DNA of 47,962 bases from Armatimonadota bacterium. GTDB taxonomy: Bacteria > Armatimonadota > JAAZEB01. Positions 5,160-45,098 of the stretch are shown one piece after another. The position numbers and the translations under genes were made by a program. Location of the stretch: the NCBI GenBank assembly GCA_012512505.1, contig JAAZEB010000042.1:1-47962 (forward strand). The letters run 5' to 3'. Every line of letters starts with the position of its first letter. The first letter of the stretch is position 1. The notes beneath the pieces are model-generated. The model saw nothing but the letters and a program-made list of their open reading frames with translations, had not been told where the DNA came from and made no database searches.

Positions 5160-5168
5160 CGGCAATCA

Positions 5169-8141: not shown

Positions 8142-9767
8142 ATGGAATCTACAGTGAGGGCGCGCTGGCCCGCCGACTGGGCCTGGCTGGCCCCGGCCGT
8201 GGTGACGGGTGTGGGTCTTGGCCTGCTCTTCTGGCCCCTTGCCTCCGCGTTCGCGATCTCGCGTGAGGCCGACGAGGGACTGGCGTTCTTCGCACCGCTG
8301 GTGGCGGCCGCCCTGGTATGGATCCGCCGCGATACCCTCCGGGAGACGCCGGCCGCGGGAGACGCCCGGGGGTGGTGGCTGATCGGGCTGGGGTGCTTGA
8401 TCGCCATCGCGGCGCACCGGGTGGGCTCGCGCTTTCCCCTGGCCGTTGCCCTACCGCTGGTGCTGGCCGGGATGGTGTGGTATCTACGCGGGCGGGCCTG
8501 GCTTGGGCAGCTCTGGTTTCCCCTGCTGATACTGGCGGCGATCACACCGCTCCCCAGTCCGCTGGTGAAGGCGATCGCCTTCCCCTTGCAGGCGATCATC
8601 GCCCGCCTGGCTGCCATCGTGCTGGAGGTGGTGGGCTTGCCGGTGCAGCGTGAGGGGGTCATGCTGGTGGTGGCCGGCCATCCGTTGCAGGTGGCTGAGG
8701 GGTGCTCCGGCTGGCGGGGGTTGTCTGCCGCGTTCTGGCTGTCGCTCATCTTCGTCTACTGGCAGCACCCAAGCCGCTGGTGGCAGTCGCTGTGGGTATT
8801 GCCGCTGCTGCTGCCGCTAGCGATGGTGGCGAACCTAGCGCGGGTAGTTACAGTGGGCATCCTCACCGCGCACGGGCAGGCCTGGGCCGTTCAGGCGCCC
8901 TGGCACGAGCTGATCGGCATTGCCTACTTCGTGCCCTCGGTGTGGCTGGTGCTGCAGGTGGCCGGCCCCGAGGAGACACCGGGCGCTGACACCGCCCCCG
9001 ATGACCCAACCCTCGATTCGGCTGGCGAGCAAGCCCCCACCGAGGCGGGTGCCACCCCTGCGTCAGGCAGCGCCTCGGCGGCCGCTCCCGATGCCCCTGC
9101 CGCAGTGCCGGCCCCAACGGCTGATGGACCGACGCCCCCACCAGCGGGCTTGCAGCCGGTGCGGCGGGAGTCGCTATGGCGCCTGGCGGTAGCGTGCTGC
9201 CTGCTGGGCGGGGTCGCAACCATCTGCACCCTCCAGGCGAACCAGCCGCAGGGCCCCACACGGCTTCCCGACCTGCCGCCGCGGCTCGGCGAATGGCAGC
9301 GCGACCGGACCAAACCGCAGGCGGCAATGCTTGCCGGGGGGTGGCAGGAAGACGCCACCTACCGCAACGCCGCGGGCGAAGTAGTGTGGGTCTTCTGGCA
9401 ACTGCCTGTGACTAAGCACGGGCAGCCGTTCCGGATGGTCAACCTCTGGCTGAAACGGGCGTATGAGCTTATCGGCGAGCGGCAGCAGTGGATCGAGACG
9501 CGCTACCGCCGGACCCCCGTGCGGGTAGCCACCCTCGTCAAAGGGCGAGAGCGGGCGATTGCCGCGGTGACGCACCTGCACCCCCGGCGCGCGACCGTCT
9601 CCGACCTGGGGGCGCGCCTCTGGCTGCTGGAGGAGCGCCTGCTGCGAGGGCGCGTCCGGCCGTGGGTCACCGTCTCGGTAACGGCCGGCGATGCTGCCAC
9701 CGCCCTTGCGGTAGAGCGGCTCCTGATCGAGCACACTGAGGATTGGCTTCGTGAGGGCCAGCGGTAG
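8142..9767 (+). CDS. Exosortase fused to an EpsI-family domain
   Basis: Residues 1-275 form an eight-helix exosortase carrying the catalytic triad expected of this cysteine protease family: Cys188 in AEGCSGWRGL, Arg234 in ANLARVV and His255 in PWHELIG. A proline/alanine/acid-rich linker (about 278-345) leads to another membrane segment (LWRLAVACCLLGGVATICTL). An extracytoplasmic EpsI-type domain follows (about 380-541, with PRLGEWQ near its start). Exosortases recognise C-terminal PEP-CTERM signals, cleave them and pass the protein on for surface attachment; EpsI domains accompany them in exopolysaccharide loci. The ribosome-binding site is GGAGG 9 nt before the ATG. The PEP-CTERM gene directly downstream is the obvious substrate. 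EpsI is often a separate gene, so the fusion is noteworthy but not unique. Confidence 0.92.
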   Translation: MESTVRARWPADWAWLAPAVVTGVGLGLLFWPLASAFAISREADEGLAFFAPLVAAALVWIRRDTLRETPAAGDARGWWLIGLGCLIAIAAHRVGSRFPLAVALPLVLAGMVWYLRGRAWLGQLWFPLLILAAITPLPSPLVKAIAFPLQAIIARLAAIVLEVVGLPVQREGVMLVVAGHPLQVAEGCSGWRGLSAAFWLSLIFVYWQHPSRWWQSLWVLPLLLPLAMVANLARVVTVGILTAHGQAWAVQAPWHELIGIAYFVPSVWLVLQVAGPEETPGADTAPDDPTLDSAGEQAPTEAGATPASGSASAAAPDAPAAVPAPTADGPTPPPAGLQPVRRESLWRLAVACCLLGGVATICTLQANQPQGPTRLPDLPPRLGEWQRDRTKPQAAMLAGGWQEDATYRNAAGEVVWVFWQLPVTKHGQPFRMVNLWLKRAYELIGERQQWIETRYRRTPVRVATLVKGRERAIAAVTHLHPRRATVSDLGARLWLLEERLLRGRVRPWVTVSVTAGDAATALAVERLLIEHTEDWLREGQR

Positions 9768-29881: not shown

Positions 29882-29988
29882 CACCTGACCTCCGTTCTGC
29901 CGCGCTCGCCAGAAGGGTGAACCGCAGCCTACTGCATGGTGATCTTGTCTCAATGCGGTAATGACAGATCCGGTCGTGCGGTGGTAGT

Positions 29989-30052
29989 GGCGAAGCCTCT
30001 GCGGGCCGGGCGCCGCGCGTTGCTGCGAGCCTCGGGCGGCAAAGGCTTCGCC
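29989..30052. repeat. Imperfect palindromic element with GGCGAAGCCT/AGGCTTCGCC ends
   Basis: GGCGAAGCCT (29989-29998) is the exact reverse complement of AGGCTTCGCC (30043-30052). The 44 nt between are GC-rich. A second element with related ends (GGCGAGGC ... GGCTTCGCC) occurs at 31560-31624, so both may belong to one dispersed palindromic family. The rest of 29882-30156 shows no gene. Confidence 0.4.
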
Positions 30053-30156
30053 GCGACAGGGTCTGCCGTTGTAATATCAGGGACGGTGGGCGTGATCCCG
30101 ACGTGAGTTTGTGGCTTTGACGCTTGCAAACAGGCCAATTCTTTTCGGGAATTGCG

Positions 30157-30186
30157 TTGACAGAAACGGCATCCTCATGGTATAGT
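30157..30186 (+). promoter_or_regulatory. Near-consensus sigma-70 promoter for the RiPP maturation arm
   Basis: TTGACA (30157-30162), an 18-nt spacer and TATAGT (30181-30186) match 11 of 12 consensus bases, the best promoter I found in the window. It reads into the structured leader and then the chaperone and precursor genes. Confidence 0.8.
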
Positions 30187-30192
30187 CAAAGC

Positions 30193-30736
30193 AATCGTAT
30201 GCCGCCCAGGCGGATGTCACTTATCCGCCCGGTGTGCGTGCCTGATTACCAGGCGCGTAGGCACCGCACGCTCCTCGGTGCGGTGTGTCATGCCGGTGCT
30301 TGCCGTGATGGCGCCGGCCTCGTCTGCGGCAGCTATGGTTTACCGCACTTCTGTTGCTTCCGCGCTCACCGGGCGACAACTCAGGCCCGACCTGCGGGAA
30401 GCGTGCCGCACAACACTGCGTTGGGATGCCGGCCAGGCCGGCGCCGGGGGCGCACAGCCCCCAACGATGGGGGGTGGTTGAGGGACCACGGAGTCCCTTC
30501 ACGGAGTTGAGAGCGGCCCGTGCCCCTCACCAGCTTGCCGGACGTAGTCAGCGCCTCCCTGGGAAGAGCCGTGGTGCAGCGTTTGTCTCGCCAGGCTCAA
30601 CTCATGGAGCGCCAACGGCCGCAGTCGGCGAGCGGCGCGGCCCACACCGGTTCCCGGAGTGTAGAGCACCGGCGCGGCGGGAAGCCACCGGCATCGGTGG
30701 CCGACCGGGCGCCCACCGGATCGGGAGGAGTGAAAC
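30193..30736 (+). promoter_or_regulatory. Structured 5' leader of the RiPP operon, candidate cis-regulatory RNA
   Basis: About 540 nt lie between the predicted transcription start and the first ATG, with no credible ORF. It contains a series of stems: GGCGGAT/ATCCGCC (30209-30229), CGTGCCTG/CAGGCGCG (30237-30257, one G-U), CACCGCAC/GTGCGGTG (30262-30285), GGGGGC/GCCCCC (30446-30462) and AGGGAC/GTCCCT (30481-30498). The C-run at 30458-30462 can instead pair with GGGGGG at 30469-30474, so two exclusive hairpins compete, as in riboswitches and attenuators. It does not match my recollection of cobalamin or SAM riboswitch cores. Confidence 0.55.
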
Positions 30737-31141
30737 ATGGCGAGTGCGGAGATCACCATCCAGGATGTGTTGGACTTCGCGCGGGTGAGCGGCGCCTTCG
30801 CCGCGGTCTCGCGGGAAGTCGCGGCTCGCAAGACGGCGGTTGCCGCCGCCCGGGCGCGGGGCATCTGCGTCACCGACGACGAACTGCAGAAGGCGGCCGA
30901 CGCCTTCCGCATCGTGCATGGCCTGAAGAGCGCCGCCGACACGGAGAAGTGGCTGAGCGGCTCCGGGCTGACCGTCGAGGCGTTTGAGGAGTACCTGGTC
31001 ACCAACCTCCTCATCATGAAGTTGAAGCAGAGCCTGGTGGCGGAAGCCGACAAGGCGCAGATCATGGATTCGGAGCCTGCGCGGACCGCCCTTGGCGACG
31101 TGCTCTACCAGCAGTGGCTTAGCCAGCAGATGGGTGCCTAG
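30737..31141 (+). CDS. Free-standing SurA-N-like chaperone domain protein of the RiPP locus
   Basis: The 134-residue protein has no signal peptide. Residues 41-100 align without gaps to residues 51-110 of the parvulin-type protein at 38250-39023, with roughly half the positions identical (shared blocks include TDxELQxAADxFRxVHGL, WL and GLTV). That region is the helical N-terminal chaperone domain of PpiC/SurA-type proteins. The catalytic parvulin domain is absent here. GGGAGGAG lies 6 nt before the ATG. It is the first gene of the operon, 74 nt before the precursor gene. I infer that it binds the unmodified precursor or its leader in the cytosol; it could also be an adaptor for the radical SAM enzymes. 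A long-leader precursor is an alternative, but the strong homology to a chaperone and the lack of a GG motif argue against it. Confidence 0.75.
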   Translation: MASAEITIQDVLDFARVSGAFAAVSREVAARKTAVAAARARGICVTDDELQKAADAFRIVHGLKSAADTEKWLSGSGLTVEAFEEYLVTNLLIMKLKQSLVAEADKAQIMDSEPARTALGDVLYQQWLSQQMGA

Positions 31142-31150
31142 CGCCGTCCC

Positions 31151-31173
31151 CGCCGGCGCAACACTCGCCGGCG
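31151..31173 (+). other. Hairpin between chaperone and precursor genes
   Basis: CGCCGGCG (31151-31158), a 7-nt loop and CGCCGGCG (31166-31173) form a perfect 8-bp stem in the 74-nt gap, 43 nt before the precursor start. It could protect the precursor message from 5' decay. Confidence 0.45.
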
Positions 31174-31215
31174 CGACTGGCCCAGGCCACGCGCTGGCGC
31201 GAAGGAGAAGCGACC

Positions 31216-31458
31216 ATGGCAAGGATCCAGATTCGGGATTTGACCGACGAGTCGGTAAGCGCCGAGGAGATGAAGAAGGTGTACGGCGGCCTCAGTACTA
31301 TCCGAGTGCCGACGCTTGGAACCAACCAGCCGCTGCCTCCGGGCTCCTTGGTGATGGACCTGTGTGGCGGCACCCGGAGTGGGTGCCAGGGGGTGATGGG
31401 CAGCTTCCTCAACCCCGGCGATCTGGTCTCTCTCCCCGGCATGAACACCAAGCTCTAA
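31216..31458 (+). CDS. RiPP precursor peptide with Gly-Gly leader
   Basis: The 80-residue peptide reads as leader plus core. The leader (residues 1-25) is MARIQIRDLTDESVSAEEMK followed by KVYGG: an amphipathic EEMKKVYGG end with a double-glycine cleavage site, the type cut by C39 peptidase domains such as the one in the exporter at 42036-45098. The predicted core (26-80, 55 residues) begins LSTIRVPTLGTNQPLPPG. It has two cysteines (Cys50 and Cys57, DLCGGTRSGCQG), six prolines and many Gly, Thr, Ser, Asn and Leu, and shows no repeats. AAGGAG 8 nt before the ATG is a strong ribosome-binding site, fitting high expression. The cysteines and neighbours are plausible thioether sites for the SPASM enzyme; carbon methylation by the B12 enzymes is possible. 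All modifications are inferred. Confidence 0.82.
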   Translation: MARIQIRDLTDESVSAEEMKKVYGGLSTIRVPTLGTNQPLPPGSLVMDLCGGTRSGCQGVMGSFLNPGDLVSLPGMNTKL

Positions 31459-31485
31459 CGGTGTGGCCGGGAAGCCGCCCGTGAA

Positions 31486-31521
31486 CGCGTTGCCGGGCGC
31501 ATGAAGACGCCCGGCAACGCG
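31486..31521 (+). terminator. Strong gene-end hairpin (attenuator) after the precursor gene
   Basis: CGCGTTGCCGGGCG (31486-31499) pairs perfectly with CGCCCGGCAACGCG (31508-31521): a 14-bp stem and 8-nt loop, 27 nt after the precursor stop. The following bases are GGGGGTTCTG, not a T-run, so partial termination or 3'-end protection is likelier than a full stop. It would let the precursor be made in excess over its enzymes. Confidence 0.7.
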
Positions 31522-31559
31522 GGGGTTCTGACATCAGGGGCGCAACCTGATCTGGTGGC

Positions 31560-31624
31560 GGGGCGAGGCGTTCGCGTGAGGGATGCTGCGGCCCCGGCCT
31601 GGCATCCCGCGAAGGCTTCGCCCC
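31560..31624 (+). repeat. Long imperfect palindrome between precursor and radical SAM genes
   Basis: GGGGCGA (31560-31566) pairs with TCGCCCC (31618-31624), TTCGCG (31571-31576) with CGCGAA (31608-31613), and GGATG (31581-31585) with CATCC (31603-31607). The end sequence GGCTTCGCC resembles the element at 29989-30052. It may be a dispersed repeat that also serves as a processing structure. Confidence 0.5.
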
Positions 31625-31750
31625 GCCCCCCCTGGTGTTGGAGAACAGTGGCCGGGAACAGAGACGACGCCTGTTCGCGGGCATTGACGGCTTCTCCGGC
31701 CAGCTCTCGACACCGATGCCCGCTGCCCAACTCACGCCGGAAAGACAACC

Positions 31751-32782
31751 ATGGCCGCCACGGAGAACGCCCCGGCAGGCCCTCAGCGCGTTTCAGTCGT
31801 TCTGACGGGCCCCTGCAACTATCGCTGTTTCTACTGTTGTGTCGGCCACGAGCGGCTGCGAGGTGCCCGCTTCGGCCGGCTGGCGACCCCGGAGGGCGAG
31901 CGGCAGCTCCTGCAACTGCTGGACGGCCTTGGCTCCTGCGTGCTGAACCTGTGTGGCGGCGGGGAGGTGGCGCTGCTGCCGAACTTCCTCTCCCTGTGTG
32001 GTGGCGCCGCCCGCAACCACCGCCTGGAACTGATCTCCAACTTCTCCTGGGATCCAACGCCGTTCCGCCGTGCCGTTCCCGCCGACCGGGTGGATAGCCT
32101 GATCCTCTCCCTGCACCCGGAGGCCGAAAGCGACCTGGTCGGGTTCCAGCGGCGGGTCCTGGAGCTTGGTGAGGCCGGCTACCCGCTGCAGATCATCTAC
32201 GTGGCGCACCCTACTCGCCTGGGGGCGATCCCGGAGTACCACGGCTTCTTCACCCGCCACTCGCTGCTCTTCCGGGTGATCCCGTTCCGCGGCGAGTTCG
32301 AGGGACGGCACTACCCGCAGGCCTACACCGCCGAGGAGCTGGCGCGGATCCTCCCGTACGTGGTGGACTTCTCCACCCACTACGGCTTCACGCGCGGCGC
32401 GCGCCTGCACTGGGGCAGGCCTTGCGCCGCCGGGCACCGCAGCTTCCTCCTGTTCGAGGAGGATGGGCGGATCCTGCGCTGTCAGCACAGCCGTACCGTG
32501 CTTGGGAACCTGTACGACGGATGGCTGCACGCCCTCGACCGGCCGGCGCCCTGCGATGCTCTCGTCTGCCTGTGCGGCCAGTGCCAGGCAGAGGAGGCGT
32601 TTCTCCAGGCCTACTACCGGTGTGGCGGCCAGTTGGCCGCGCCGCTGCCCGAGACCTCCCTCCGGGAGTACGCCGCCCTGTGCGAGCCGGACTGGGAGTT
32701 CTACGAGCCCTACCGCGAGGCCCTCGCCGCGCAGCACCTCCATTGGGGAGCCCGGCCCTCCCCCCGGGATACCAGCTCATGA
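31751..32782 (+). CDS. Radical SAM protein 1 of the RiPP locus, compact with C-terminal cysteine cluster
   Basis: The 343-residue protein has the CX3CX2C cluster at Cys22, Cys26 and Cys29 (GPCNYRCFYCC), which binds the catalytic 4Fe-4S cluster, and a CGGGEVALL motif (68-76) for the SAM amino group. The C-terminal part holds Cys225, Cys244 (ILRCQHSRTVLGN) and a Cys268/273/275/278 group (CDALVCLCGQC). This looks like a short twitch/SPASM-type auxiliary cluster domain. Such domains are typical of radical SAM enzymes acting on peptides. GGAAAG lies upstream of the ATG. Its stop overlaps the next start by 4 nt (ATGA), indicating translational coupling. Substrate is inferred to be the upstream precursor; reaction type (thioether, C-C or epimerisation) is unknown. 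Confidence 0.85.
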   Translation: MAATENAPAGPQRVSVVLTGPCNYRCFYCCVGHERLRGARFGRLATPEGERQLLQLLDGLGSCVLNLCGGGEVALLPNFLSLCGGAARNHRLELISNFSWDPTPFRRAVPADRVDSLILSLHPEAESDLVGFQRRVLELGEAGYPLQIIYVAHPTRLGAIPEYHGFFTRHSLLFRVIPFRGEFEGRHYPQAYTAEELARILPYVVDFSTHYGFTRGARLHWGRPCAAGHRSFLLFEEDGRILRCQHSRTVLGNLYDGWLHALDRPAPCDALVCLCGQCQAEEAFLQAYYRCGGQLAAPLPETSLREYAALCEPDWEFYEPYREALAAQHLHWGARPSPRDTSS

Positions 32783-34329
32783 CCGCACGCGCTTTGACCC
32801 TCGACCCGCTCGACGCGCTCACGCCGGAGAACGTCCACCTCTTCGAGTACCAGGGGGAGCCTTTCGCCTTCGTGATCCCGACCACTCGCCGCTTCGCGCT
32901 GCGGGAGGAGACCGCCTACCTGCTGCGCCACGCCCTGGCCGCCGGGGGGGCACGGCTCACCGTCGGCCTCTGGAAGTACACCCCGCAGCAACTGCTGGCC
33001 TCCTATGCCGGCCTGCAGCGCCTCAACGAGGCGGTGCGCGTGAGCGTGGACGAGATGAAGCGCCTGGAGCAGCGCCTGCGCGAGGAGGCAGCGGAGACCG
33101 ACGACCCCGAACGCCTCATCTCCATCGTGCAGAACACGCGGCGCGACCACTACGTCTACATCACGCGCCGCTGCAACCTCGCTTGCTCCTACTGCTGGAA
33201 CGATGGCGGCCGCGTCGACGGCGAAGGCCCTGACGAGCCGGACGACGCGCTGCTGGAGGCGATTGCCGACTTCATCATCGCCAACTCCGGCGAGCGCAAG
33301 GAGCTCGAAGTCATCTTCTTCGGCGGCGAGCCGCTGTTCGGCATCGAGAAGATCGCCCACTTTGCCGAGTACGCCCGGCGCCGGGCCGCCCCCGTTGGCA
33401 AGGAGTTCCGCTACCTGCTCGATACCAACGGCACCATCTGGAACGACCGCATCGCCCAGGTGGTGAAGGAGCACCGGATCTACATCCTTGTCAGCCTGGA
33501 CGGCGCCGCCGAGACGCACAACCCGCACCGACCGTTCCGCGACGGCCGGCCGTCGCACCATGTGATCCTGGCGAACGTGGCGCGGATGCTGCGCGACGTG
33601 CCCGGCCAGGTGGGCGCCCGCGCCGTGCTGGGGGATCCTAGCTACTCGCTGACCGACACTCTCAACTTCCTCCGCCCCTACCGCTTCCAGGAGCTGCAGG
33701 TCCTTTACTACTCCTTCGCCGGCTTCAGCGGCGGCTCTCGCAACCGGGTTCTCGGCACGGAGAGCGTGGAGCAGTACCGCGCGGCCCTCGCCCAGGAGGT
33801 CAACTTTATCCTGCAGCGGTTGGGGGAGGGGATCGCCACCCAGGTGGAGATCGCCTTCCTGCGGGAGATGAAGTTCCGGCTCACCGGAACGCGCCACTTC
33901 CACCGCTGCTACCTCGGCCGGTCGCAGATGGTGTTCCAAACCAACGGGCGCATCTACCCCTGCCTCTATCTCAACGACGACCGCCACTGCCTGGGCGATG
34001 TCTACCGCGGCATCCACCGCTGGGACTTGATCCGGGAGTATGGCAAGGCGACCGTCTTCACCGAGGAGCAGTGCCGCCACTGCTGGGCCCGGTTCGCCTG
34101 CGGCGGGTGCTGCCTCGCCCGCAACATCGCCTTCATGGGAGACCCTTACCAGCCGATCCCGCTGCAGTGCGAGCGACTGAAGGAGGAGGTGCGCGCCCAG
34201 GCTTACCTGGCTTCCCGTCTGGCGGAACGCGGCGTAGACGTGTTCAACCGCTTCCTTCAGGCCATGACCGGCGAGCTGCCGCTGGACCCGGCCGCCCCGG
34301 TGGCAGGAAAGGGCGAGCAATGCGCTTAG
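32779..34329 (+). CDS. SPASM-domain radical SAM peptide maturase
   Basis: The start at ATG 32779 overlaps the previous stop. The 516-residue protein has an N-terminal region (1-120) resembling the leader-recognition segments of SCIFF- and QhpD-type maturases (HLFEYQGEPFAFVIPTTRRF; LREETAYLLRHALAAGG). The radical SAM core has Cys132, Cys136 and Cys139 (CNLACSYCWNDGG), GGEP at 182-185 and DTNGT at 215-219. The SPASM domain (about 375-465) shows Cys377, 395, 404, 432, 435, 441, 444, 445 and 464, for example QCRHCWARFACGGCC, enough for two auxiliary 4Fe-4S clusters. Relatives install thioether or carbon-carbon links in RiPP cores; the two precursor cysteines fit a thioether role, but this is inference. 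Confidence 0.92.
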   Translation: MTARALTLDPLDALTPENVHLFEYQGEPFAFVIPTTRRFALREETAYLLRHALAAGGARLTVGLWKYTPQQLLASYAGLQRLNEAVRVSVDEMKRLEQRLREEAAETDDPERLISIVQNTRRDHYVYITRRCNLACSYCWNDGGRVDGEGPDEPDDALLEAIADFIIANSGERKELEVIFFGGEPLFGIEKIAHFAEYARRRAAPVGKEFRYLLDTNGTIWNDRIAQVVKEHRIYILVSLDGAAETHNPHRPFRDGRPSHHVILANVARMLRDVPGQVGARAVLGDPSYSLTDTLNFLRPYRFQELQVLYYSFAGFSGGSRNRVLGTESVEQYRAALAQEVNFILQRLGEGIATQVEIAFLREMKFRLTGTRHFHRCYLGRSQMVFQTNGRIYPCLYLNDDRHCLGDVYRGIHRWDLIREYGKATVFTEEQCRHCWARFACGGCCLARNIAFMGDPYQPIPLQCERLKEEVRAQAYLASRLAERGVDVFNRFLQAMTGELPLDPAAPVAGKGEQCA

Positions 34330-36239
34330 TGCTGGTGCCGCCTTCCACGACCGTCGTCAACACCCAGGTTCCTGTTGAGGTGCCGTCGGGCATCCTGCGC
34401 CTGGCGCAGATCGCGCGCCGCATGGACGGGGTGGAGTGCATCCTGCAGCCGGTGCCGCTCTACTACCCCGACCGCCGGGCGCTGGAGGGAGCCGCACTGA
34501 CGATCGCCTGGCGCGAACCAGACGTCGTGGGCTTTTCCACCTGGTGCCACACCTACCCAGCCCAGGTGGCACTGGCGCAGGAGTTGGCGCGGATCCGGCC
34601 CCAGTGCCGCATCCTCTTCGGCGGCCCACAGGCGACTGCCACCGACGTGGAGACGCTGCGCGCCTTCCCCTTTGTCGACCTCGTGGCCCGGGGCGAAGCG
34701 GAAGTCACCTTCCCGCGCCTCTTGACTGCCCTCGCCGCCTCCGACCCCGTGCTGGACGACATCCCCGGACTCTCCTTCCGCCGCGGCGACCAGATCGTCC
34801 GCACCGGCGATGCTACGCCCGTCACCGACCTGGACGCGCTGCCCTGGCCGGCCTACGATCTGATGCCGCCTCGGGAGATGCTCTACCTCGATTCCGGGCG
34901 TGGCTGTCCCTACGCCTGCAAGTACTGCTCCACGTCCGTCTTCTTCCGCCGGCAGCACCGGCTGCGCTCTCCCGCCAGCATCCTCGACGAGATGGAGTAC
35001 GTCCACCGCCGCTACGGCACGCGCATCTTCCATCTCACTTGCGATAGCTTCACCGTCAACCGGCGCTACGTCGAGCAGTTCTGCGAGGCGTTCCGCGCCC
35101 GCGCGCTGCCGGTGCGCTGGGGCTGCATGACGCGCGTGGACTGCGTGGATGCCCCGCTGCTACAGTTGATGGCCGACTCCGGCTGCCTCACCGTCCTCTA
35201 CGGCATCGAGAGCGGCTCGCCGGCGATGCAGCGTAGCATCGGCAAGCGGCTGAATGTCGCGCAGGTGCGGCAGGCCACCGAGGGCGCCGTGCGCGCCGGG
35301 CTGATGACCTACTGCTCCTTCATCCTGGGCTTCCCTGACGAGACCCCCGAGGACCTGGCGCAGACCCTGGCGATGATGCAGGCGGCTGTGGCCCTGGGCG
35401 CAAAGGTCTACGCCCACACCCTCGCGGTGATGCCCGATACCGCCTACGCCCGTGAGTACGGGGCGCAACTGCGCTACGACGGCGAGTTTTCGTCCACCTC
35501 GATGGCCTACCTGGGCGCTGCGGAGGAAGCGTTGGTGCGGGCGCACCCCGATATCTTCTCGCCGTTCTACTACCTGCCCAGCCCGGCGGCATCCCGCCCC
35601 GCCCTGCTCGCCGCCACCCGGGCAGGGATGCTCCTCAACTGGTTCCGCTTCACGCTCTTGCTCCTCGACAGCGCCACCCCGGAGCGCAACGTCTACCAGG
35701 AGCTTTGCCGCCGCGTTGATTCCGGGCAGATCCCCATCGGCGGGCCGGAAGACAGCCTGCAGGAGGGCCTGCTGCGGGTTCTGGAAGAGCAGGTGGCCGC
35801 GGCCGCCCCGGAAGGAAGCCTCCTGCGCGAGGTGTTTGCCCTGGAGCGGGAGGTGCTGGTCCACCGGCAGGCGGAGCTGGACCCGGAGGCCGCCGGCATC
35901 GCCGGAACGGGGAGCGAGCACGACACAATCCGCAAGCCGCGCTGTTGCTTTACCCTGACTGCCAGTTACGACCTGGCGGCTTTCTTCCGCAGCGGCAACC
36001 CGGAGGAGGCCACCCGCGCGCGGCACGATTACCTGATCCAGCCGGTGTGGGATGGGCACTTCCGGCTCTATCCGTTGAGCCCGGAGAAGCGCGCGGCCTA
36101 CGAGGCACTGCACGACGGCAGCACCATCGCCGAGGCGCGCCAACTCCTGGCGCGCTACCTGCCGAGCGACGAAGCCAGCCGCTTCCTGGACAACTGCCTC
36201 CAGTATTGGGTGCTGCACCGGCTGGGAGGGGCGCGATGA
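34320..36239 (+). CDS. B12-binding-domain radical SAM protein A
   Basis: ATG 34320 overlaps the SPASM gene by 10 nt; the product is 639 residues. Residues about 1-145 form a cobalamin-binding Rossmann domain (VVGFSTWCHTYPAQVALA; CRILFGGPQATATD; FVDLVARGEAEVTFP) lacking the DxHxxG loop, as is usual for B12 radical SAM enzymes. The radical SAM core has Cys196, Cys200 and Cys203 (GRGCPYACKYCSTSVFFRR), YGIESGS and SFILGFPDETPEDL. A 200-residue C-terminal region ends in a small helical domain (LSPEKRAAYEALHDGSTIAE) shared with protein B. B12 radical SAM enzymes usually methylate unactivated carbon or phosphorus, though some catalyse rearrangements. It is paralogous to the next gene. Target residues are unknown. 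Confidence 0.9.
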   Translation: MRLVLVPPSTTVVNTQVPVEVPSGILRLAQIARRMDGVECILQPVPLYYPDRRALEGAALTIAWREPDVVGFSTWCHTYPAQVALAQELARIRPQCRILFGGPQATATDVETLRAFPFVDLVARGEAEVTFPRLLTALAASDPVLDDIPGLSFRRGDQIVRTGDATPVTDLDALPWPAYDLMPPREMLYLDSGRGCPYACKYCSTSVFFRRQHRLRSPASILDEMEYVHRRYGTRIFHLTCDSFTVNRRYVEQFCEAFRARALPVRWGCMTRVDCVDAPLLQLMADSGCLTVLYGIESGSPAMQRSIGKRLNVAQVRQATEGAVRAGLMTYCSFILGFPDETPEDLAQTLAMMQAAVALGAKVYAHTLAVMPDTAYAREYGAQLRYDGEFSSTSMAYLGAAEEALVRAHPDIFSPFYYLPSPAASRPALLAATRAGMLLNWFRFTLLLLDSATPERNVYQELCRRVDSGQIPIGGPEDSLQEGLLRVLEEQVAAAAPEGSLLREVFALEREVLVHRQAELDPEAAGIAGTGSEHDTIRKPRCCFTLTASYDLAAFFRSGNPEEATRARHDYLIQPVWDGHFRLYPLSPEKRAAYEALHDGSTIAEARQLLARYLPSDEASRFLDNCLQYWVLHRLGGAR

Positions 36240-38179
36240 AGCTGCTGCTCATCCCCCCGGCCCGCAGCCAGGCCAACTACGGGCAGGGTGTCTTCATCCC
36301 CACCGGCCTCCTCAGCCTGGCCGCGGTGCTGCGCCGGGAGGAGCACGTCACCTTCGAGATCCCGAACGTGCCGCTCTTCTTCCGCGACCCGGACGCCATC
36401 GAGGCGGCCGCGCGGCAGATCCTCGAACGCGCGCCAGACGTGGTCGGGTTCTCTACCTGGTGCCACTCTTACCCCGGGCAGGTGCTCCTCGCCCGCGCGA
36501 TCAAGCGGTTGGCGCCCAGGTGCTGGATCCTCTTCGGCGGGCCGCACGCTTCCATCGCCGACTGCCAGACGTTGGAGGCGTTCCCCTGGGTGGATCTCGT
36601 CTTGCGCGGCGAGGCCGAGGAGTCGCTGCCGATCCTCCTGCGGGCCTTGAGTAGTGGCGCGGCGCTGGACGATTGTCCGGGCCTGACCTGGCGCGCCGAC
36701 GGCACCATCCGACGCAACGCCGATGCCCCGCCGATCACCGACCTGGACGCGCTGCCGCTGCCGGCCTACGACCTGCTGGTCGACCGGCGGACCCTGACGG
36801 TGGACGTGGGGCGCGGCTGCCCGTACAACTGCAGCTACTGCTCCACCAGCTCCTTCTTCCATCGCCGCTACCGGCAGAAGTCGGTGGCGCGAGTGATGGA
36901 GGAGTTGCGCGTCATCAGCCGCCAGTACCGGCCCCAGATCCTGGCCTTCACCCACGACCTGTTCACCCTGGACCGGCACTACGTAGAGTCGCTGTGCGCT
37001 CAGATCACCGCCGAACACCTCGCGCTCCACTGGTGCTGCATGACCCGCATCGACGCCGTGGACCGCCCACTGCTGCAGACGATGGCGCGCGCCGGCTGCT
37101 TCAACATCGGCTACGGGATCGAGACTGGCTCGCCCCGCCTGCAGCGGAGCATTCGCAAACGCCTGAACCTCACCCGCCTGCGCGAAGTGATGCGCGAGAC
37201 TCGCGAGGCCGGCATCCTCGCGAGCTGTTCCTTCATCACCGGCTTCCCGGACGAGCAGCCCGAGGACCTGAACGACACCCTGCGGTGCATCGTTGCCTGC
37301 GCACGCGAGCGGGCTTCGGTGGGCCTGAACCTCCTGGCCGTGCTGCCGGGCACCTCCCTCTACACCGAGCATGCCCAGCGGCTGCGCTACGACGACTACT
37401 CGTCGGTCACCAGCGGCGCCTACCTCTCGGAGCTGGAGCGCGACCTGGTTCGCCGCCACCCGGCGGTGTTCAGCTCCTTCTTCCATCTCGACAGCCCCGC
37501 TGCGCCCCGGCCGGTGCTGGTCGGGCTGGCCCAAGTTGTGTTCGTGCTCAGCTTCCTGAAGCTCACCCTCCGCGGCGTGCTGGATACCTGCGGCCTGGAT
37601 CCCGATCAGGCTGACCTGCTGAGCCTGGCGCAAACCTACCTGCTGGACCACCTGCCCGAGGGCGAGCCGGTCCATGACGCGGCGCTGAGGGCGGTCCACT
37701 CGTGGTTGCGCGAGCTCGAAGCCGGCCCCTGGCGTCTGCCGCCTTACCTGAAGGAGGTGCTGCGCGCGGAAGAGGCTAGCTTCCGGCTCACCCTGGCCGA
37801 GGTGGAGACGGACTTGTCGCGCCGCTTCGAGGCGCAGGCAGCGGAGGATGTCGCGGCCGGCGGGCGGCTGTACAGCCTGCGCAACTGGACCCTCCTGGCC
37901 TCGCGCTACCCCCTGGCGGAGATCCTCATCAGTCTGGCGCGCGGCGAGTACGATGACTGGCAGCCGGCCGCCACGGAGACACTCTACGCGGTGCAGATGG
38001 TGGGGGAGAACGACGTGCGCGCCTTCTCTGTTTCGCCGGAGAAGGCGGCAATCCTGAACGAGCTGCCACACACGCTGACGGCGGCTGAGCTAGACGCCCT
38101 GTGCCGCCGCCACCTGCCTCCGGCGGAGGCACAGGCGTTCCCGGAGCGGCTGAGGGCACTTCAGTTCATCGCCGGCTGA
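36236..38179 (+). CDS. B12-binding-domain radical SAM protein B, tandem paralog of protein A
   Basis: ATG 36236 overlaps the previous stop (ATGA), with GGGAGGGG upstream; 647 residues. The architecture matches protein A domain for domain: DVVGFSTWCHSYPGQVLLAR, WILFGGPHASIADCQTLEAF, LVLRGEAEESLP, then Cys195, Cys199 and Cys202 in GRGCPYNCSYCSTSSFFHRR, YGIETGSPRLQRSI, and a C-terminal SVSPEKAAILNELPHTLTA domain. Residues 68-78 are nearly identical to protein A (DVVGFSTWCH). The pair clearly arose by duplication and has diverged most in the C-terminal half. They may modify different residues of the precursor or work as a heterodimer. It is the last gene of the plus-strand arm and is followed by a hairpin. 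Confidence 0.9.
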   Translation: MKLLLIPPARSQANYGQGVFIPTGLLSLAAVLRREEHVTFEIPNVPLFFRDPDAIEAAARQILERAPDVVGFSTWCHSYPGQVLLARAIKRLAPRCWILFGGPHASIADCQTLEAFPWVDLVLRGEAEESLPILLRALSSGAALDDCPGLTWRADGTIRRNADAPPITDLDALPLPAYDLLVDRRTLTVDVGRGCPYNCSYCSTSSFFHRRYRQKSVARVMEELRVISRQYRPQILAFTHDLFTLDRHYVESLCAQITAEHLALHWCCMTRIDAVDRPLLQTMARAGCFNIGYGIETGSPRLQRSIRKRLNLTRLREVMRETREAGILASCSFITGFPDEQPEDLNDTLRCIVACARERASVGLNLLAVLPGTSLYTEHAQRLRYDDYSSVTSGAYLSELERDLVRRHPAVFSSFFHLDSPAAPRPVLVGLAQVVFVLSFLKLTLRGVLDTCGLDPDQADLLSLAQTYLLDHLPEGEPVHDAALRAVHSWLRELEAGPWRLPPYLKEVLRAEEASFRLTLAEVETDLSRRFEAQAAEDVAAGGRLYSLRNWTLLASRYPLAEILISLARGEYDDWQPAATETLYAVQMVGENDVRAFSVSPEKAAILNELPHTLTAAELDALCRRHLPPAEAQAFPERLRALQFIAG

Positions 38180-38249: not shown

Positions 38250-39023
38250 TCAGAGCTGGGTGAGCACCGGCTTGCGGATCTGGGCCTTGCCCCGCTCGGC
38301 GGCGAGCCACTCGACCATCAGCCGCGCCTTGATCACCTCCCGCAGCATCGGCGTGAGGGTGGCCGGCTGGCGCTCCTCGACTTTGATCAGCACCCAATCG
38401 TCACCGTTGCGGATCGGCCCGATCACCTCGCCCGGCTGCGCCCCGAAAACTGCCGCTTGCAGATCCGCGCTGAGGTCGGCGCGGGTGACCCGCCCAAGAT
38501 AGCCGCCGGCCGCGCGTGTCGCGGCGTCGGTGGAGTACTGGCGGGCCAGGGCGCTAAACTCCGCGCCCTCGTCGATGATCTGCGCCCGCAGTTCCTCGGC
38601 CACGCCCTCGTCTTTGGTGACGAGGCGGGAGACTATCGCGGCCTCGTAGGCCAGGCGGTTCTCCGCGAAATACTGCTCCACCTGCCCCTCAAACAGGGCA
38701 TCGCGCACCTTCGCGATGAGCACGCACGACTCGAGATACTGCTCCCAGTCGTCAACGGTGAGGCCGTTGCTGGCCAGCCAGTCGAGGGTGGTGCTCGCCT
38801 TGTGGAGCCCGTGGACGGCACGGAACTCATCCGCCGCGGCCTGCAGCTCGGCATCGGTGGCGGTGATGCCCCGCCGGGCGGCCGCCTGCTCGATGATGGC
38901 GGCGTCGGTTATCTCATCGAGGAACCCCAACTGCCCGCGCCAGAAGGCAAACCGCAGCGCCTCCTGAAGGCTGATCGCCTTCCCATTCACCTCCACGGCC
39001 ACGATCTCGCTCAGTTCCGGCAT
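38250..39023 (-). CDS. Cytosolic SurA/PpiC-like parvulin of the RiPP locus
   Basis: The 257-residue protein has an N-terminal helical chaperone domain (about 10-120) homologous to the free-standing protein at 30737-31141. A parvulin peptidyl-prolyl isomerase domain follows (about 128-225), with EFSALARQYSTDAATRAAGG, YLGRVTR, AVFGAQPGEVIGPI and WVLIKVEERQ. It lacks a signal peptide, unlike true SurA or PrsA, so it acts in the cytosol. I recall PpiC-related proteins annotated as putative peptide-maturation components beside radical SAM RiPP genes. The six prolines of the precursor core make an isomerase partner sensible. GGAGGGAG lies 8 nt before the ATG. It is the last gene of the minus-strand export arm, separated from it by 245 nt containing two repeats. 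Confidence 0.85.
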   Translation of the reverse strand: MPELSEIVAVEVNGKAISLQEALRFAFWRGQLGFLDEITDAAIIEQAAARRGITATDAELQAAADEFRAVHGLHKASTTLDWLASNGLTVDDWEQYLESCVLIAKVRDALFEGQVEQYFAENRLAYEAAIVSRLVTKDEGVAEELRAQIIDEGAEFSALARQYSTDAATRAAGGYLGRVTRADLSADLQAAVFGAQPGEVIGPIRNGDDWVLIKVEERQPATLTPMLREVIKARLMVEWLAAERGKAQIRKPVLTQL

Positions 39024-39268: not shown

Positions 39269-41017
39269 TTAGCGCGGTGCCCCACCGGCAGCCAACTGCA
39301 CCCGCACCGGCCGCCCCTCCTTGAGTAGTTGCTGGCCCTCCACGACCACCAGCTCCCCCTCGGTCAGGCCGGAGAGGACCTCCACTCGCGCGCCCAGGCG
39401 TGCCCCAAGGCGCAGGCGGCGCCGGTGGGCCACGTTGTCTCGCACGATCCACACCTCGCCCGCGCGCGCCTCCGGCTCGTCGGCCAGGAGGGCCGCCACT
39501 GGCACGGCGAGCACGTCCGGACGCGAGCCGGCCTGGATCGTCCCGGAGGCAGACATCCCGGGGCGCAGTCGGCGGTCGGTGGTTCCCAGGGCGATCTTCA
39601 CCCGGAAGCCACGCTCCTGCGGGCCGGCCGGGGGAAGCACCTCGCGCACCCGCCCCGGCACTGTCTGCCCGCCCAGGAGGTCGAATCGCAGCGTCACCGG
39701 CTGCCCCGGCGACACGCGCGGCACGTCGCGGTCGAGCGCCGTGGCCTCCACGTAGAAGGAGGTCGGGTCCAGGATCTCCAGCAACGGCTGCCCGGCCTGC
39801 ACCGTTTCGCCCGGCTCCACCTGGCGCACTGAGACGACGCCGGCGATCGGGGCGCGGAGGCTGGTTTTCTCCAGGTCGCCACGCGCCAGCCGCACGTTCG
39901 CCTCGGCCAGTTCGGCCGCGTAGCGAGTGGCCTGCGACTCCTGGTGGCTCTTGCGAACGCGGGCGTCACCGCGCCGGGCCGCCGTCAGCAGCTCCCGCGC
40001 CCGTCGTAGCTCCGCTTCCGCCGCGAGCGCCGCCTGCTCCTTCTGGGCCAGCACGCCGGCATCGGCCTTGGCGGCGGCCAGGCGCTCCTCTGCCGCGCGC
40101 ACCTCTGCCTCGGCCTGCGCCAGTTCTTCAGGCCGCGAGCCGGCCTCCAGCAGCTTCAGAGCCTCCTGCAGGCTTTCGAGCTGCGCCTTCGCCTGTGCCG
40201 CCTCGGCGCTGGCGCGCTGCCAGTCGCGCTCCGCGCTCTCCACCACCTGGCGTGCCACGTAGCCGCGCGCCAGCAGTTCACTTTTCCGTTTCCAGTTGCG
40301 CTCGGCCAGCGCGCGCTCTTCCTCGGCACTTTCCAGGCTGGCACGGGCCCCCGCCACTTCTGCCTTCGCCCGCGCCAGCTCCTGCGGGCGCGCCCCGGCT
40401 CGCAGCAGCCGCACCCGCGCCGTCGCGGCGGCGAGCTGCGCCTGCGCCAGGGCCACGTCGGCCTCTACGCGCTGGCGCGTGGTGCGCACCTCCTGGCGGG
40501 CCTGCTCTAGGCCGGCTTCGGCAATGCGCACTTGCTCTGCCGCTTGTGCCTCCGCGACGCGCACTTCAGTACCGGTGACCTCGGCGTCTGCCTCGGCGCC
40601 GCCCAGCCGGTGCCGGGCCGCGCGCAGCTCAGCTTCCGCCGCCGCCAGGCGCGTCCGGTAGTCGCCATCGAACAGCGAGACGACCACCTGGCCCTGCTCC
40701 ACCCGCATCCCCTCCCGCGCCGCGACTGAGACCACGCGCCCGTCGATCTGCGAGGCAAGGGTGGCCCGCCGCTCGGCGGTGAGGGTGCCGACCACCTGCC
40801 CCGTGTCGACCAGCGTCTCGCGGGTCGCGGTGACCACTCCCACCGGAACGGCCTTGGCCGCCGGCGGTGCCGGGGCGCGGCTGGCGGCGACGGCGCGCAC
40901 CGGGGCACGCCGGGCGCACCCGCCTGCCAGCAGGCAGAAGGGAACGAGGAAGGCGATAGCCAGCCGCCACCCGCCCGGCAGCGGCCCCCTCCGTCCTGCG
41001 GCTCCCGCGGTGCTCAT
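39269..41017 (-). CDS. MacA/AcrA-like periplasmic adaptor lipoprotein of the export arm
   Basis: The 582-residue protein has a lipoprotein signal with lipobox LAGGC (Cys34), predicting a lipid-anchored periplasmic protein. A barrel-sandwich half follows (GTLTAERRATLASQIDGRVV, then VEQGQVVVSLFDGDY). A long alpha-helical coiled-coil hairpin runs from about 120 to 385, full of AEAQAA, ARAEVAG and LESAEEERAL type heptads. The second half of the lipoyl domain comes next (LRAPIAGVVSVRQVEPGE), then beta-barrel and membrane-proximal domains (LDRDVPRVSPGQPVTLRFD; LRPGMSASGTI). The hairpin is unusually long, able to reach far toward an outer-membrane channel. AGGA lies 8 nt before the ATG. It follows the NHLM-type HlyD gene by 22 nt, so it probably forms the same exporter or acts as a second adaptor. 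Confidence 0.88.
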   Translation of the reverse strand: MSTAGAAGRRGPLPGGWRLAIAFLVPFCLLAGGCARRAPVRAVAASRAPAPPAAKAVPVGVVTATRETLVDTGQVVGTLTAERRATLASQIDGRVVSVAAREGMRVEQGQVVVSLFDGDYRTRLAAAEAELRAARHRLGGAEADAEVTGTEVRVAEAQAAEQVRIAEAGLEQARQEVRTTRQRVEADVALAQAQLAAATARVRLLRAGARPQELARAKAEVAGARASLESAEEERALAERNWKRKSELLARGYVARQVVESAERDWQRASAEAAQAKAQLESLQEALKLLEAGSRPEELAQAEAEVRAAEERLAAAKADAGVLAQKEQAALAAEAELRRARELLTAARRGDARVRKSHQESQATRYAAELAEANVRLARGDLEKTSLRAPIAGVVSVRQVEPGETVQAGQPLLEILDPTSFYVEATALDRDVPRVSPGQPVTLRFDLLGGQTVPGRVREVLPPAGPQERGFRVKIALGTTDRRLRPGMSASGTIQAGSRPDVLAVPVAALLADEPEARAGEVWIVRDNVAHRRRLRLGARLGARVEVLSGLTEGELVVVEGQQLLKEGRPVRVQLAAGGAPR

Positions 41018-42035: not shown

Positions 42036-45000
42036 TTATCCCTCCAGTTGCTGGCTGTTCAGGTAGTAGTACAGCCCACGCTGCTCCATCAGACTGTAGT
42101 GTGTGCCGCTCTCGACGATGTTCCCTTGGTCCATCACCACGATCAGGTCGGCGTTGCGCACGGTGCTCAGCCGGTGGGCGATGATGATGGTCGTCCGGTC
42201 TTTGAGGATGTGCTCCAGGTTCTGCTGGATGGCGCGCTCGCTCTCCGTGTCGAGGGCGCTGGTGGCCTCGTCGAAGATCAAGATCCGCGGCTTGTGGAAG
42301 AGGGCGCGGGCGATGGCGATCCGCTGCTTTTGGCCGCCGGAGAGGCTTTGCCCGCGCTCGCCGATCTTCGTCTCGTAGCCCAGCGGCAGTTCACTGATGA
42401 ACTCGTGCGCGCCCGCCAGCATCGCCGCTCCCACGACCTCCTCCAGCGGGGCATCCGGCTTGCCGAAGGCGATGTTCTCCCGGATGGTGCCGCTGAACAA
42501 CACCACGTCCTGCGGCACCACCCCGATCTGCGCCCGCAGGCTGGCCAGCGATACCTGGCGCAGGTCGTACCCGTCCACGTAAATGCGGCCGGCGGTCGGC
42601 TCGTGCAGGCGCAGCAGCAGGTTGGCGAAGGTGGACTTGCCGGCGCCGCTGCGCCCGACGAGCGCCACCGTCTGCCCGGGGTACACCTCCAGGTTGATGT
42701 TCTGCAAAGCGTTGCGGTCTGGGCGCGTTGGGTAGCGGAAGGTGACGTTCTCGAAGCGCAGGTGCCCGCGCAGGGTGGGGAGGCGCATCAACGCCTCGCT
42801 GTGGCCGTCTTCTTCCGGCTTGGCGTCGAACACGTCGTTGAGGCGCTCCAGAGCAACGCTGACTTCCTGGAAGCTATCCCACAGGCCGATCAGGCCGAGG
42901 ATCGGTCGGGTGACGTTGCCCACCAGGGCGTTGAACGCCATCAGTTGGCCCACGGAGAGCTCGCCGGCGATCACCAGATGGGCGCCGTACCAAAGCAGGA
43001 AAGTGGTATTCAGCGTTTGCAGGGTGGTGCCGGCGGAGAAGGAGGCCATGTTGATCAACGCGCCCCGGAACTGCACGTTGAGCGCCTTCACCATCAGCCC
43101 TTCCCAAGCCCAGCGGACACTCTGCTCCGCCGCCGTCGCCTTCACCGTGCCGATGCCGGCCACCGCCTCCACCATCTGCGACTCTGCCGCTGCCGAGCGC
43201 TCGAACGACTCGCGATACTGCCGCTTCATGATCGGCGTCGCCACCAGCGTCAGAATCGCGTAGGCGGGGATGAAGGCGATGGCGACGAGGGCCAGCTTGG
43301 TGTTGTAGTAAAGCATCAGCCCGAGGTAGACCACCACCATCAGGCAGTCGAGCACGGCGCCCAGGGCCCGGCCGGTGAGCATCTCGCGGATCTTGGCGTT
43401 TTCGCCGAAACGCTTCAGGATGTCGCCGACGCGGCGCTCCTCGAAGTAGCGCATCGGCAGGCTGAGCACGTGCCGGTAGAAGGCGACCACCATCTCCAGG
43501 TCGATCCGCCGCGTGGTGTGGACCATCAGGTACTCGCGCAGGGCGGTGGCGGCGGTCTGGAAGAAGGCGATGACCACCATGCCGACCAGCATGATGTTCA
43601 GCATCGACACGCTGCGGTGGACGAGCACCTTGTCGACGATCACCTGGGTGAAGATCGGGGCGGCGAGCCCGAAGAGCTGGATCAGCAGCGACGCGAAGAG
43701 GATCTCCAGCAGCAGGCGCCGGTGCGGGCGCAGCAGCGGCAGGAACCGCCCGAGGGTGGTGCGCGAGGGTTCCACCTGCTCCAGGGCGGGCGTCGGCGTC
43801 AGCACCAGCAGGTAGCCGGTCCAGCCCTGGGTGAACTCCTCGCGCGTCATCCGGCGCAGGCCGATCGCCGGGTCGGCCACCACCACGTGGTCCGGATGCA
43901 CCTCATAGAGGACGATGTAGTGGTAGCCCTCCCAGTGGGCGATGGCGGGGAGCTCCACCCGGGCGAGGTGCTCGTAGGAGACGCGCACGCCGCGCGCGCG
44001 CAGCCCCAGCGTTTCGGCGGCCTGAGCGACGTCGTAGAGGGTGGCGCCCTCGCGGCCCACGTTTGCCAGGTCGCGCACGCGGTTGATGCTGACGTACTTG
44101 CGGTAGTAGCGCAGCACCATCGCCAGCGACGCGGCGCCGCAGTCGGTCTCGCTCACCTGCAGCAGCACCGGGTAGCGTCGGGCGCGCCGCGGCCGGTAGT
44201 TGCTTTGCTCCTCGGCAGGTGCTGCTGTCGGTGCTGGCTCGGATGGGGGAGGGAGCGCGGCCACCGGCTCCGGGGCGGCCTCCTCGTCTGGCGGGAGCGT
44301 CTGGCCGTAGCCGGCCGCCGCCGCGGCGATGGCATCTTTCAGCTTTGGCGCCGAGGCCAGGATGCGGTCGAAATCCGCCTTCTCCAGGCGCAGCACCGTG
44401 CAGGCTTCCCGGGCCACGATGGAGGCGGCGCGCGGCTGCCCGGTCAGCAGGGCCAGCTCGCCAAAGCTGGCACCCGGCTGCAAGTGGGCAATCGGCTTGG
44501 GGCCGGCGCTCTCCTTCAGCACGTCGGCGCTTCCGGTGCGCAACACGTAGAAGGCGTCGCCCGGGTCCCCTTCGCGGATGATCACCTCCCCTGGCTCGAA
44601 CTGACACTCCTTGACGGCGGAGAGGAGGTCCTGGATCTCCTTGGGTGACAGCGGCGAGAAGACGGTACACAGCTTGAGGAAGTTGCGCACCGAGGTGTCG
44701 GAGATGTAGCTGCGCAGGTAGTCGCCTAGCTGCGGCTGCTCTTTCAGGAGGGCATCGAACTCCGCCTTGCCCAGACGGAGCAGCGCCAGGTCGCCGGCCG
44801 CCCGGATCGTGTAGTGGCGGCGCGAGTCCGTCAGCAGGCCCTGCTCGCCGAAGTGATTGCCGCGCGTCAGGATGCCAACGGTCAGCTCCTCGCCCTGGGC
44901 CGTCTGGCCCACCACACGCGCCCGCCCGGAGTAGACGATGTAGAACGCGTCCGCCTCGTCTCCAGCGCGGCACACCGTCTGGCCCAGCGAGAAGTGCACC

Positions 45001-45098
45001 AGCGTGAAGGCTCCGACCAGGCGTTCCAGCTCCGCGTCTCCCAGAAGCGCGAAGAGACCGGTCTCGCCAATAATCGCCTTGAGGTCAGTAAGTTGCAC
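42036..45098 (-). CDS. C39-peptidase ABC exporter with two N-terminal cyclic-nucleotide-binding-like domains
   Basis: The 1,020-residue protein begins with two cNMP-binding folds (about 12-130 and 143-265; GDEADAFYIVYSGRARVVG, FGEQGLLTD; GDPGDAFYVLRTGSADVL, FGELALLTGQPRAA). A proline/alanine-rich linker (270-300) follows, then a C39 peptidase domain (about 305-435) with an intact triad: Cys320 in SETDCGAASLAM, His393 in GYHYIVLYEV and Asp409 in VVADPAIG. A six-helix ABC membrane domain (about 455-730) and a nucleotide-binding domain complete it (GRSGAGKST Walker A, LSGGQKQRIAIARAL, ILIFDEATSALD). The C39 domain would remove the leader after Gly-Gly during export. Paired cNMP-like domains suggest gating by a nucleotide or a structural role. 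The GTG start at 45098 has only a weak ribosome-binding site. Confidence 0.93.
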   Translation of the reverse strand: MQLTDLKAIIGETGLFALLGDAELERLVGAFTLVHFSLGQTVCRAGDEADAFYIVYSGRARVVGQTAQGEELTVGILTRGNHFGEQGLLTDSRRHYTIRAAGDLALLRLGKAEFDALLKEQPQLGDYLRSYISDTSVRNFLKLCTVFSPLSPKEIQDLLSAVKECQFEPGEVIIREGDPGDAFYVLRTGSADVLKESAGPKPIAHLQPGASFGELALLTGQPRAASIVAREACTVLRLEKADFDRILASAPKLKDAIAAAAAGYGQTLPPDEEAAPEPVAALPPPSEPAPTAAPAEEQSNYRPRRARRYPVLLQVSETDCGAASLAMVLRYYRKYVSINRVRDLANVGREGATLYDVAQAAETLGLRARGVRVSYEHLARVELPAIAHWEGYHYIVLYEVHPDHVVVADPAIGLRRMTREEFTQGWTGYLLVLTPTPALEQVEPSRTTLGRFLPLLRPHRRLLLEILFASLLIQLFGLAAPIFTQVIVDKVLVHRSVSMLNIMLVGMVVIAFFQTAATALREYLMVHTTRRIDLEMVVAFYRHVLSLPMRYFEERRVGDILKRFGENAKIREMLTGRALGAVLDCLMVVVYLGLMLYYNTKLALVAIAFIPAYAILTLVATPIMKRQYRESFERSAAAESQMVEAVAGIGTVKATAAEQSVRWAWEGLMVKALNVQFRGALINMASFSAGTTLQTLNTTFLLWYGAHLVIAGELSVGQLMAFNALVGNVTRPILGLIGLWDSFQEVSVALERLNDVFDAKPEEDGHSEALMRLPTLRGHLRFENVTFRYPTRPDRNALQNINLEVYPGQTVALVGRSGAGKSTFANLLLRLHEPTAGRIYVDGYDLRQVSLASLRAQIGVVPQDVVLFSGTIRENIAFGKPDAPLEEVVGAAMLAGAHEFISELPLGYETKIGERGQSLSGGQKQRIAIARALFHKPRILIFDEATSALDTESERAIQQNLEHILKDRTTIIIAHRLSTVRNADLIVVMDQGNIVESGTHYSLMEQRGLYYYLNSQQLEG

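Follow-up and report, generated by a model that had tools for sequence, protein, structure and literature searches.

Does the 80-residue open reading frame at the center of this locus encode a RiPP precursor, and would the radical SAM genes that follow it act on its product? We addressed this question in a 47,962-nt stretch of DNA from an Armatimonadota bacterium (contig JAAZEB010000042.1), referred to here in its entirety as the window. The frame is a real gene, and it almost certainly encodes a double-glycine (GG) peptide precursor. Given that it adjoins candidate modifying enzymes, with four radical SAM genes directly downstream, it is very probably a RiPP precursor as well.

An earlier reading of the sequence alone had drawn attention to the frame, and its description of the gene held: the start codon, stop codon, and length were as claimed, as were the GG boundary with its 55-residue core and the positions of the two cysteines and six prolines. 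The leader ends in KKVYGG, with the glycines at residues 24 and 25 and the upstream pattern of acidic and hydrophobic residues that is expected of a GG-leader exporter substrate. All of the prolines (residues 32, 39, 41, 42, 67, and 74) fall in the core, which lacks Tyr, Trp, and His. The G+C content by codon position (57/47/81%) resembled that of the neighboring genes (GC3 of 81%). Among the 183 window ORFs of 60 to 150 aa, the precursor ranked third by codon score, with ORF134 ranking first, and the five alternative frames across the same stretch scored more poorly. It was also the only window ORF of 35 to 130 aa to combine a GG-leader pattern with a Shine-Dalgarno match. When we searched for other GG peptides in the genome using a leader profile and the precursor as queries, the core matched nothing in its own genome except itself, and nothing in plasmids (Table 1).

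Table 1. Features of the precursor block and of the convergent exporter set, in window coordinates.
Feature	Coordinates	Strand	Remarks
Promoter-like site TTGACA-18-TATAGT, TG before second hexamer	30157..30186	+	11/12 consensus positions; 0.1 expected in shuffles
Strongly folding noncoding stretch, 544 nt, from promoter-like site to ORF134	30193..30736	+	z = -4.08
ORF134, stand-alone SurA-type chaperone domain	30737..31141	+	PpiC paralogue without PPIase module
Shine-Dalgarno AAGGAG	31202..31207	+	8 nt 5' of precursor ATG
Precursor ORF	31216..31458	+	ATG at 31216, TAA ending at 31458, 80 aa
Precursor leader, residues 1-25, MARIQIRDLTDESVSAEEMKKVYGG	31216..31290	+	Homologous GG leaders beside same exporter in G001 and G193
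Precursor core, residues 26-80, and stop	31291..31458	+	Cys50, Cys57, six Pro
14-bp hairpin in gap between precursor and maturase genes	31486..31521	+	No T-run
rSAM343, radical SAM protein, weakly STM4011-like	31751..32782	+	CxxxCxxC present
rSAM516, radical SAM/SPASM putative peptide maturase nearest NlpM and PapB	32779..34329	+	Below every curated cutoff
B12a, ApyD-like B12-binding radical SAM enzyme	34320..36239	+	Family-model matches
B12b, ApyD-like B12-binding radical SAM enzyme	36236..38179	+	About 43% identical to B12a
PpiC, TIGR04500-related protein with SurA-type chaperone and PPIase	38250..39023	-	Conserved with exporter in G001
HlyD/RND-type periplasmic adaptor	39269..41017	-	50% identical in G001
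Peptidase-containing ABC exporter (two cNMP-binding domains, C39 peptidase, ABC)	42036..45098	-	69% identical in G001, 59% in G193

The same reading had taken a strong ribosome-binding site and a downstream hairpin to fit high-level expression. Both elements are real, but they do not establish high-level expression. The hairpin has a perfect 14-bp stem and an 8-nt loop, and the 102-nt segment that contains it folds with a z score of -2.95. It was absent from the list of a terminator scan, and we rejected it as an intrinsic terminator because it has no T-run.

The strongest evidence for a real precursor is that its leader matches those encoded next to the same exporter in two further genomes. 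In G001, a representative of a sister genus, the exporter, HlyD, and PpiC are 69%, 50%, and 49% identical to the window proteins, respectively. About 470 nt upstream of PpiC, on the same strand, lies a 53-aa ORF (MAKVQPTDRPKPQKELSPDEAKQVQGG-ASNAKEMLKRLNKQAGDILTGDKENK) with the top codon score among the local short ORFs and the ribosome site GAGGAGG. The alignment of its leader with that of the precursor had a BLOSUM score of 38, which was reached by none of 20,000 shuffles (mean 5.2, standard deviation 6.4) that held M and GG in place; the alignment was made once the candidate had been seen, so this count does not fully correct for selection, although the selection was confined to short ORFs of that module. 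The two cores aligned no better than expected by chance. We then built a profile from the two leaders. Across 291 genomes, its one further noteworthy match was a GG peptide in G193 (E = 0.109, nonsignificant alone); the other weak matches lay inside long reading frames and were discarded upon inspection. The G193 peptide is encoded 291 nt from that genome's sole C39 exporter, which is 59% identical to the window exporter, and this proximity provides independent support for the leader match. Its core is Thr-rich and unrelated to the window core.

The window genome, G001, and G193 each have one C39 gene, and the exporter modules of G001 and G193 each have one small GG peptide. No homologue of the window radical SAM proteins was seen in either module, so GG peptides of this leader family are exported without them. 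Because the leaders are alike, the cores are unlike, and the relatives have no radical SAM genes alongside, the leader belongs with the exporter family, whereas the maturation cassette is, among the genomes searched, confined to this one. The claim that the precursor is novel is therefore best divided: the core and the cassette are new, but the leader is not unique. The short GG peptides of these two genomes of the phylum differ greatly in their cores, one being charged (L016:10639-10800, minus strand) and the other Thr-rich (L079:5928-6131, minus strand).

In the window, ORF134, the precursor, and the four radical SAM genes form a codirectional block, in which 292 nt separate the precursor from the radical SAM frames and the latter overlap successively by 4 to 10 nt. 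The PpiC, HlyD, and exporter genes are convergent to this block, placing the precursor and exporter 7 to 14 kb apart on opposite strands. In the 5.66-Mb genome, no Peptidase_C39 gene other than that of the exporter was found, and the exporter's C39 domain has intact catalytic motifs (DCG, H, and DP).

From sequence comparisons, the four downstream proteins can be assigned to superfamilies, not to reactions. rSAM516 has a CxxxCxxC motif and a SPASM-like tail, and its top family matches were exclusively to peptide- or protein-maturase families, with scores below the curated cutoffs for NlpM (206 of 519 bits), PapB (177 of 340), and the SCIFF maturase (161 of 425). Its nearest solved structure was 5wgg, a radical SAM domain protein. 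The B12-binding pair scored 320 bits (B12a) and 347 bits (B12b) against the ApyD model, for which the cutoff is 750. Searches for homologues of rSAM343 gave none in 100 relatives (at 1e-20), in plasmids, or in the PDB, and its single-sequence structure prediction was unusable (pLDDT of 35). Searches with Pfam and NCBIfam, a weak test, detected no RiPP recognition domain (RRE) in the terminal parts of rSAM516, B12a, or B12b.

The gene upstream of the precursor suggests a further participant. ORF134 is 45% identical to the window PpiC over 95 aa, with the PPIase part gone and the last helix retained. Its AlphaFold (AF2) model is all-helical (pLDDT of 80.8), and its best PDB matches in Foldseek were Cj1289 and SurA (probability of 0.95 to 0.99), with E values of 0.2 to 0.3; together with the PpiC paralogy, these matches, all SurA-like, support a chaperone fold. 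Against the TIGR04500 model, ORF134 scored 44 bits (E = 1.6e-11) and the window PpiC scored 130 bits, both below the curated score of 180 bits. The two proteins are thus relatives of the TIGR04500 partner proteins, not members. In one member, MirC, on which a RiPP-forming enzyme depends as its partner protein, the chaperone-like parts are similar to Cj1289 (PMC13097080), the top structure for ORF134 as well. With a score under the TIGR04500 cutoff, what ORF134 has is therefore a likeness to MirC, not family membership. We propose that ORF134 is a partner protein of precursor modification.

The promoter-like site upstream of ORF134 is the only one of its kind within 29900-31800. The noncoding stretch that follows it was more stable than all 100 shuffles and is possibly a structured 5' leader RNA. 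It matched no Rfam family, and Rfam scans returned nothing relevant, a subthreshold miRNA match being disregarded. No full-length copy was present in 21 genomes, where a DNA search gave only short, chance-level matches.

The core had been described as unlike those of known peptide classes, and the comparisons that we made support this: on the features that were tested, the precursor falls outside the known classes considered. Against a nif11-like peptide or proteusin, it matched no nif11, SCIFF, or NHLP leader model, the sole match being a weak one to TIGR04149 (E = 0.06). The putative maturase falls under the curated score for a ranthipeptide (PapB) or SCIFF system. Among the proteins scanned, there was neither the MNIO expected for an aminopyruvatide nor the ATP-grasp ligase expected for a graspetide. 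Tyramine excision needs an XYG site, and we rejected this modification since a core without Tyr has no such site. We therefore read the product as a probable RiPP of no characterized class, whose modifications we infer from the enzymes encoded beside it.

Comparison with named systems places parts of the locus in context. Like the window locus, the rosaritide (mir) graspetide cluster encodes a GG/PCAT-exported RiPP with a TIGR04500 protein, and MirC, which is needed for modification in mir, shares SurA/Cj1289-like chaperone parts with ORF134 (PMC13097080). However, the modifier in mir is an ATP-grasp ligase rather than four radical SAM enzymes, and MirC carries an RRE-like domain at its N terminus in addition, whereas ORF134 is the chaperone domain alone, with a separate PpiC gene. 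B12a and B12b belong to the same broad family of B12-binding radical SAM enzymes as ApyD of the aminopyruvatide cluster, which converts a peptide Tyr to beta-methyltyrosine by methylation at the beta carbon (PMC10635010). Because this core has no Tyr, beta-methyltyrosine is impossible here; moreover, the window enzymes occur in tandem and below the ApyD cutoff, and the cassette proteins that could be assigned include no MNIO or P450. rSAM516 shares its radical SAM and SPASM architecture, and its best scores, with the maturases of PapB ranthipeptides and NlpM nif11 peptides, but the window leader and core differ from those of these systems, and here the maturase is accompanied by a pair of B12 enzymes and by a radical SAM protein of a third type. 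On the export side, PteB, a C39 protein of Synechococcus elongatus, secretes the small GG proteins EbfG1-4, for which no maturase is reported (PMC4997328), and HetC of Nostoc is a C39 exporter with an N-terminal cyclic-nucleotide-binding domain for which ppGpp binding has been reported (PMC10986499). Unlike the window locus, neither system has a maturase cassette, and the vicinity of hetC yielded no GG peptide. The two N-terminal cyclic-nucleotide-binding domains of the window exporter are HetC-like, which suggests ligand control of export.

Across 291 genomes of this phylum and 395 of a different one, together with plasmids and viral contigs, no relatives of the cassette were found; the pattern-based scans are insensitive, so this absence is no proof. 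Neither rSAM516 nor B12b had a homologue across the 291 genomes, the plasmid searches gave only distant radical SAM proteins, and a scan of a collection of genome contigs for rSAM516 returned nothing. The corresponding scan for the B12 pair gave one match, to a different cluster in a Desulfomonilaceae metagenome-assembled genome (MAG). There, at L024:6164-11806, an ApyD-like B12 radical SAM gene adjoins a set that by eye looks to be of the lasso-peptide type, with asparagine synthase-like, PqqD-like, and protease-like genes.

Three other explanations bear on the proposal that the core is modified. We consider it highly improbable that the precursor frame is spurious and that the cassette acts on another substrate, such as ORF134 or some peptide from another locus. 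Open frames near 80 aa in length abound in this G+C-rich DNA, as the 183 ORFs noted above illustrate, and the core has no homologue in its own genome or in plasmids, but chance would have to account for the codon score, the good ribosome site, and a leader that matches those next to the same exporter in G001 and G193. A real peptide could still be exported unmodified, as are the EbfG proteins or the GG peptides that G001 and G193 encode, in which case the radical SAM genes would act elsewhere and Cys50 and Cys57 would form an extracellular disulfide. This has precedent, both in the modules of the two relatives, where a GG peptide occurs with no radical SAM genes close by, and in the secretion of EbfG1-4 by PteB (PMC4997328); two cysteines six residues apart are also able to form a disulfide. 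Nevertheless, we judge it quite unlikely: the precursor and the radical SAM genes share a strand across a gap of 292 nt, the following three genes overlap, the SPASM enzyme comes from a superfamily of peptide and protein maturases, and a chaperone gene of a known RiPP-partner type lies directly upstream.

Somewhat less unlikely, though still doubtful, is that the product belongs to a known class (ranthipeptide, sactipeptide, or nif11-like), with rSAM516 an unusual PapB, SCIFF-maturase, or NlpM member and the other enzymes accessory. The top scores of rSAM516 are to those three models, and the two cysteines of the core have Thr, Ser, and Asp nearby as potential acceptors. The scores themselves, however, amount to less than about half of the cutoff for NlpM and SCIFF and about half for PapB. 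In addition to the missing leader-model matches and the lack of an XYG site for tyramine excision, the core has none of the typical repeated Cys-x3-Asp/Glu motifs.

Building on the observed coding signal, leader homology, gene order, enzyme superfamilies, and single C39 exporter, we think it probable that the product is a RiPP with the GG leader of an exporter family, modified in its core by the four radical SAM enzymes with ORF134, cut by the C39 peptidase, and exported. The 25-residue leader would be a double-glycine signal for export, belonging to a family that accompanies a single kind of exporter within the phylum. The chaperone domain of ORF134 would hold the 55-residue core while four translationally coupled enzymes modify it in the cytoplasm. 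Most likely, rSAM516 would make at least one cross-link using Cys50 and/or Cys57, the B12a/B12b pair would carry out C-methylation or other B12-dependent reactions, and a further change would come from rSAM343. The C39 domain would then cut after Gly25, and the ABC transporter and HlyD would export the peptide. The action of the enzymes on this core, their chemistry, the order of steps, and any biological role are what we infer. Several findings count against the proposal: no second example of this precursor with these maturases was found in the collections searched, the precursor and exporter are distant and on opposite strands, rSAM343 has no good assignment, related GG peptides lack adjacent radical SAM genes, and an RRE was not detected, albeit in a weak test.

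We see an even chance that the locus represents a novel class of RiPP, where a stand-alone SurA domain would present the core to four radical SAM enzymes and the cargo of an existing GG exporter would have been replaced. The enzymes would comprise a tandem B12-dependent pair, an NlpM/PapB-like SPASM protein, and an STM4011-like type with no assignment to a known peptide class. If this is true, four radical SAM enzymes, including two that depend on B12, would have a defined substrate, and ORF134 would be a minimal example of a chaperone domain in the role of RiPP partner protein. It would also exemplify a route by which a maturation cassette is added to an exporter, with the leader kept and the core and enzymes changed. 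A comparison of G001 and G193, which have cargo without these enzymes nearby, with the window genome would test this directly.

Elsewhere in the window, we noted an exosortase (EpsH family) gene at 8142-9767 and, at 2766-5165, a gene for a long TPR-repeat protein fused to Sigma-70 regions 2 and 4.
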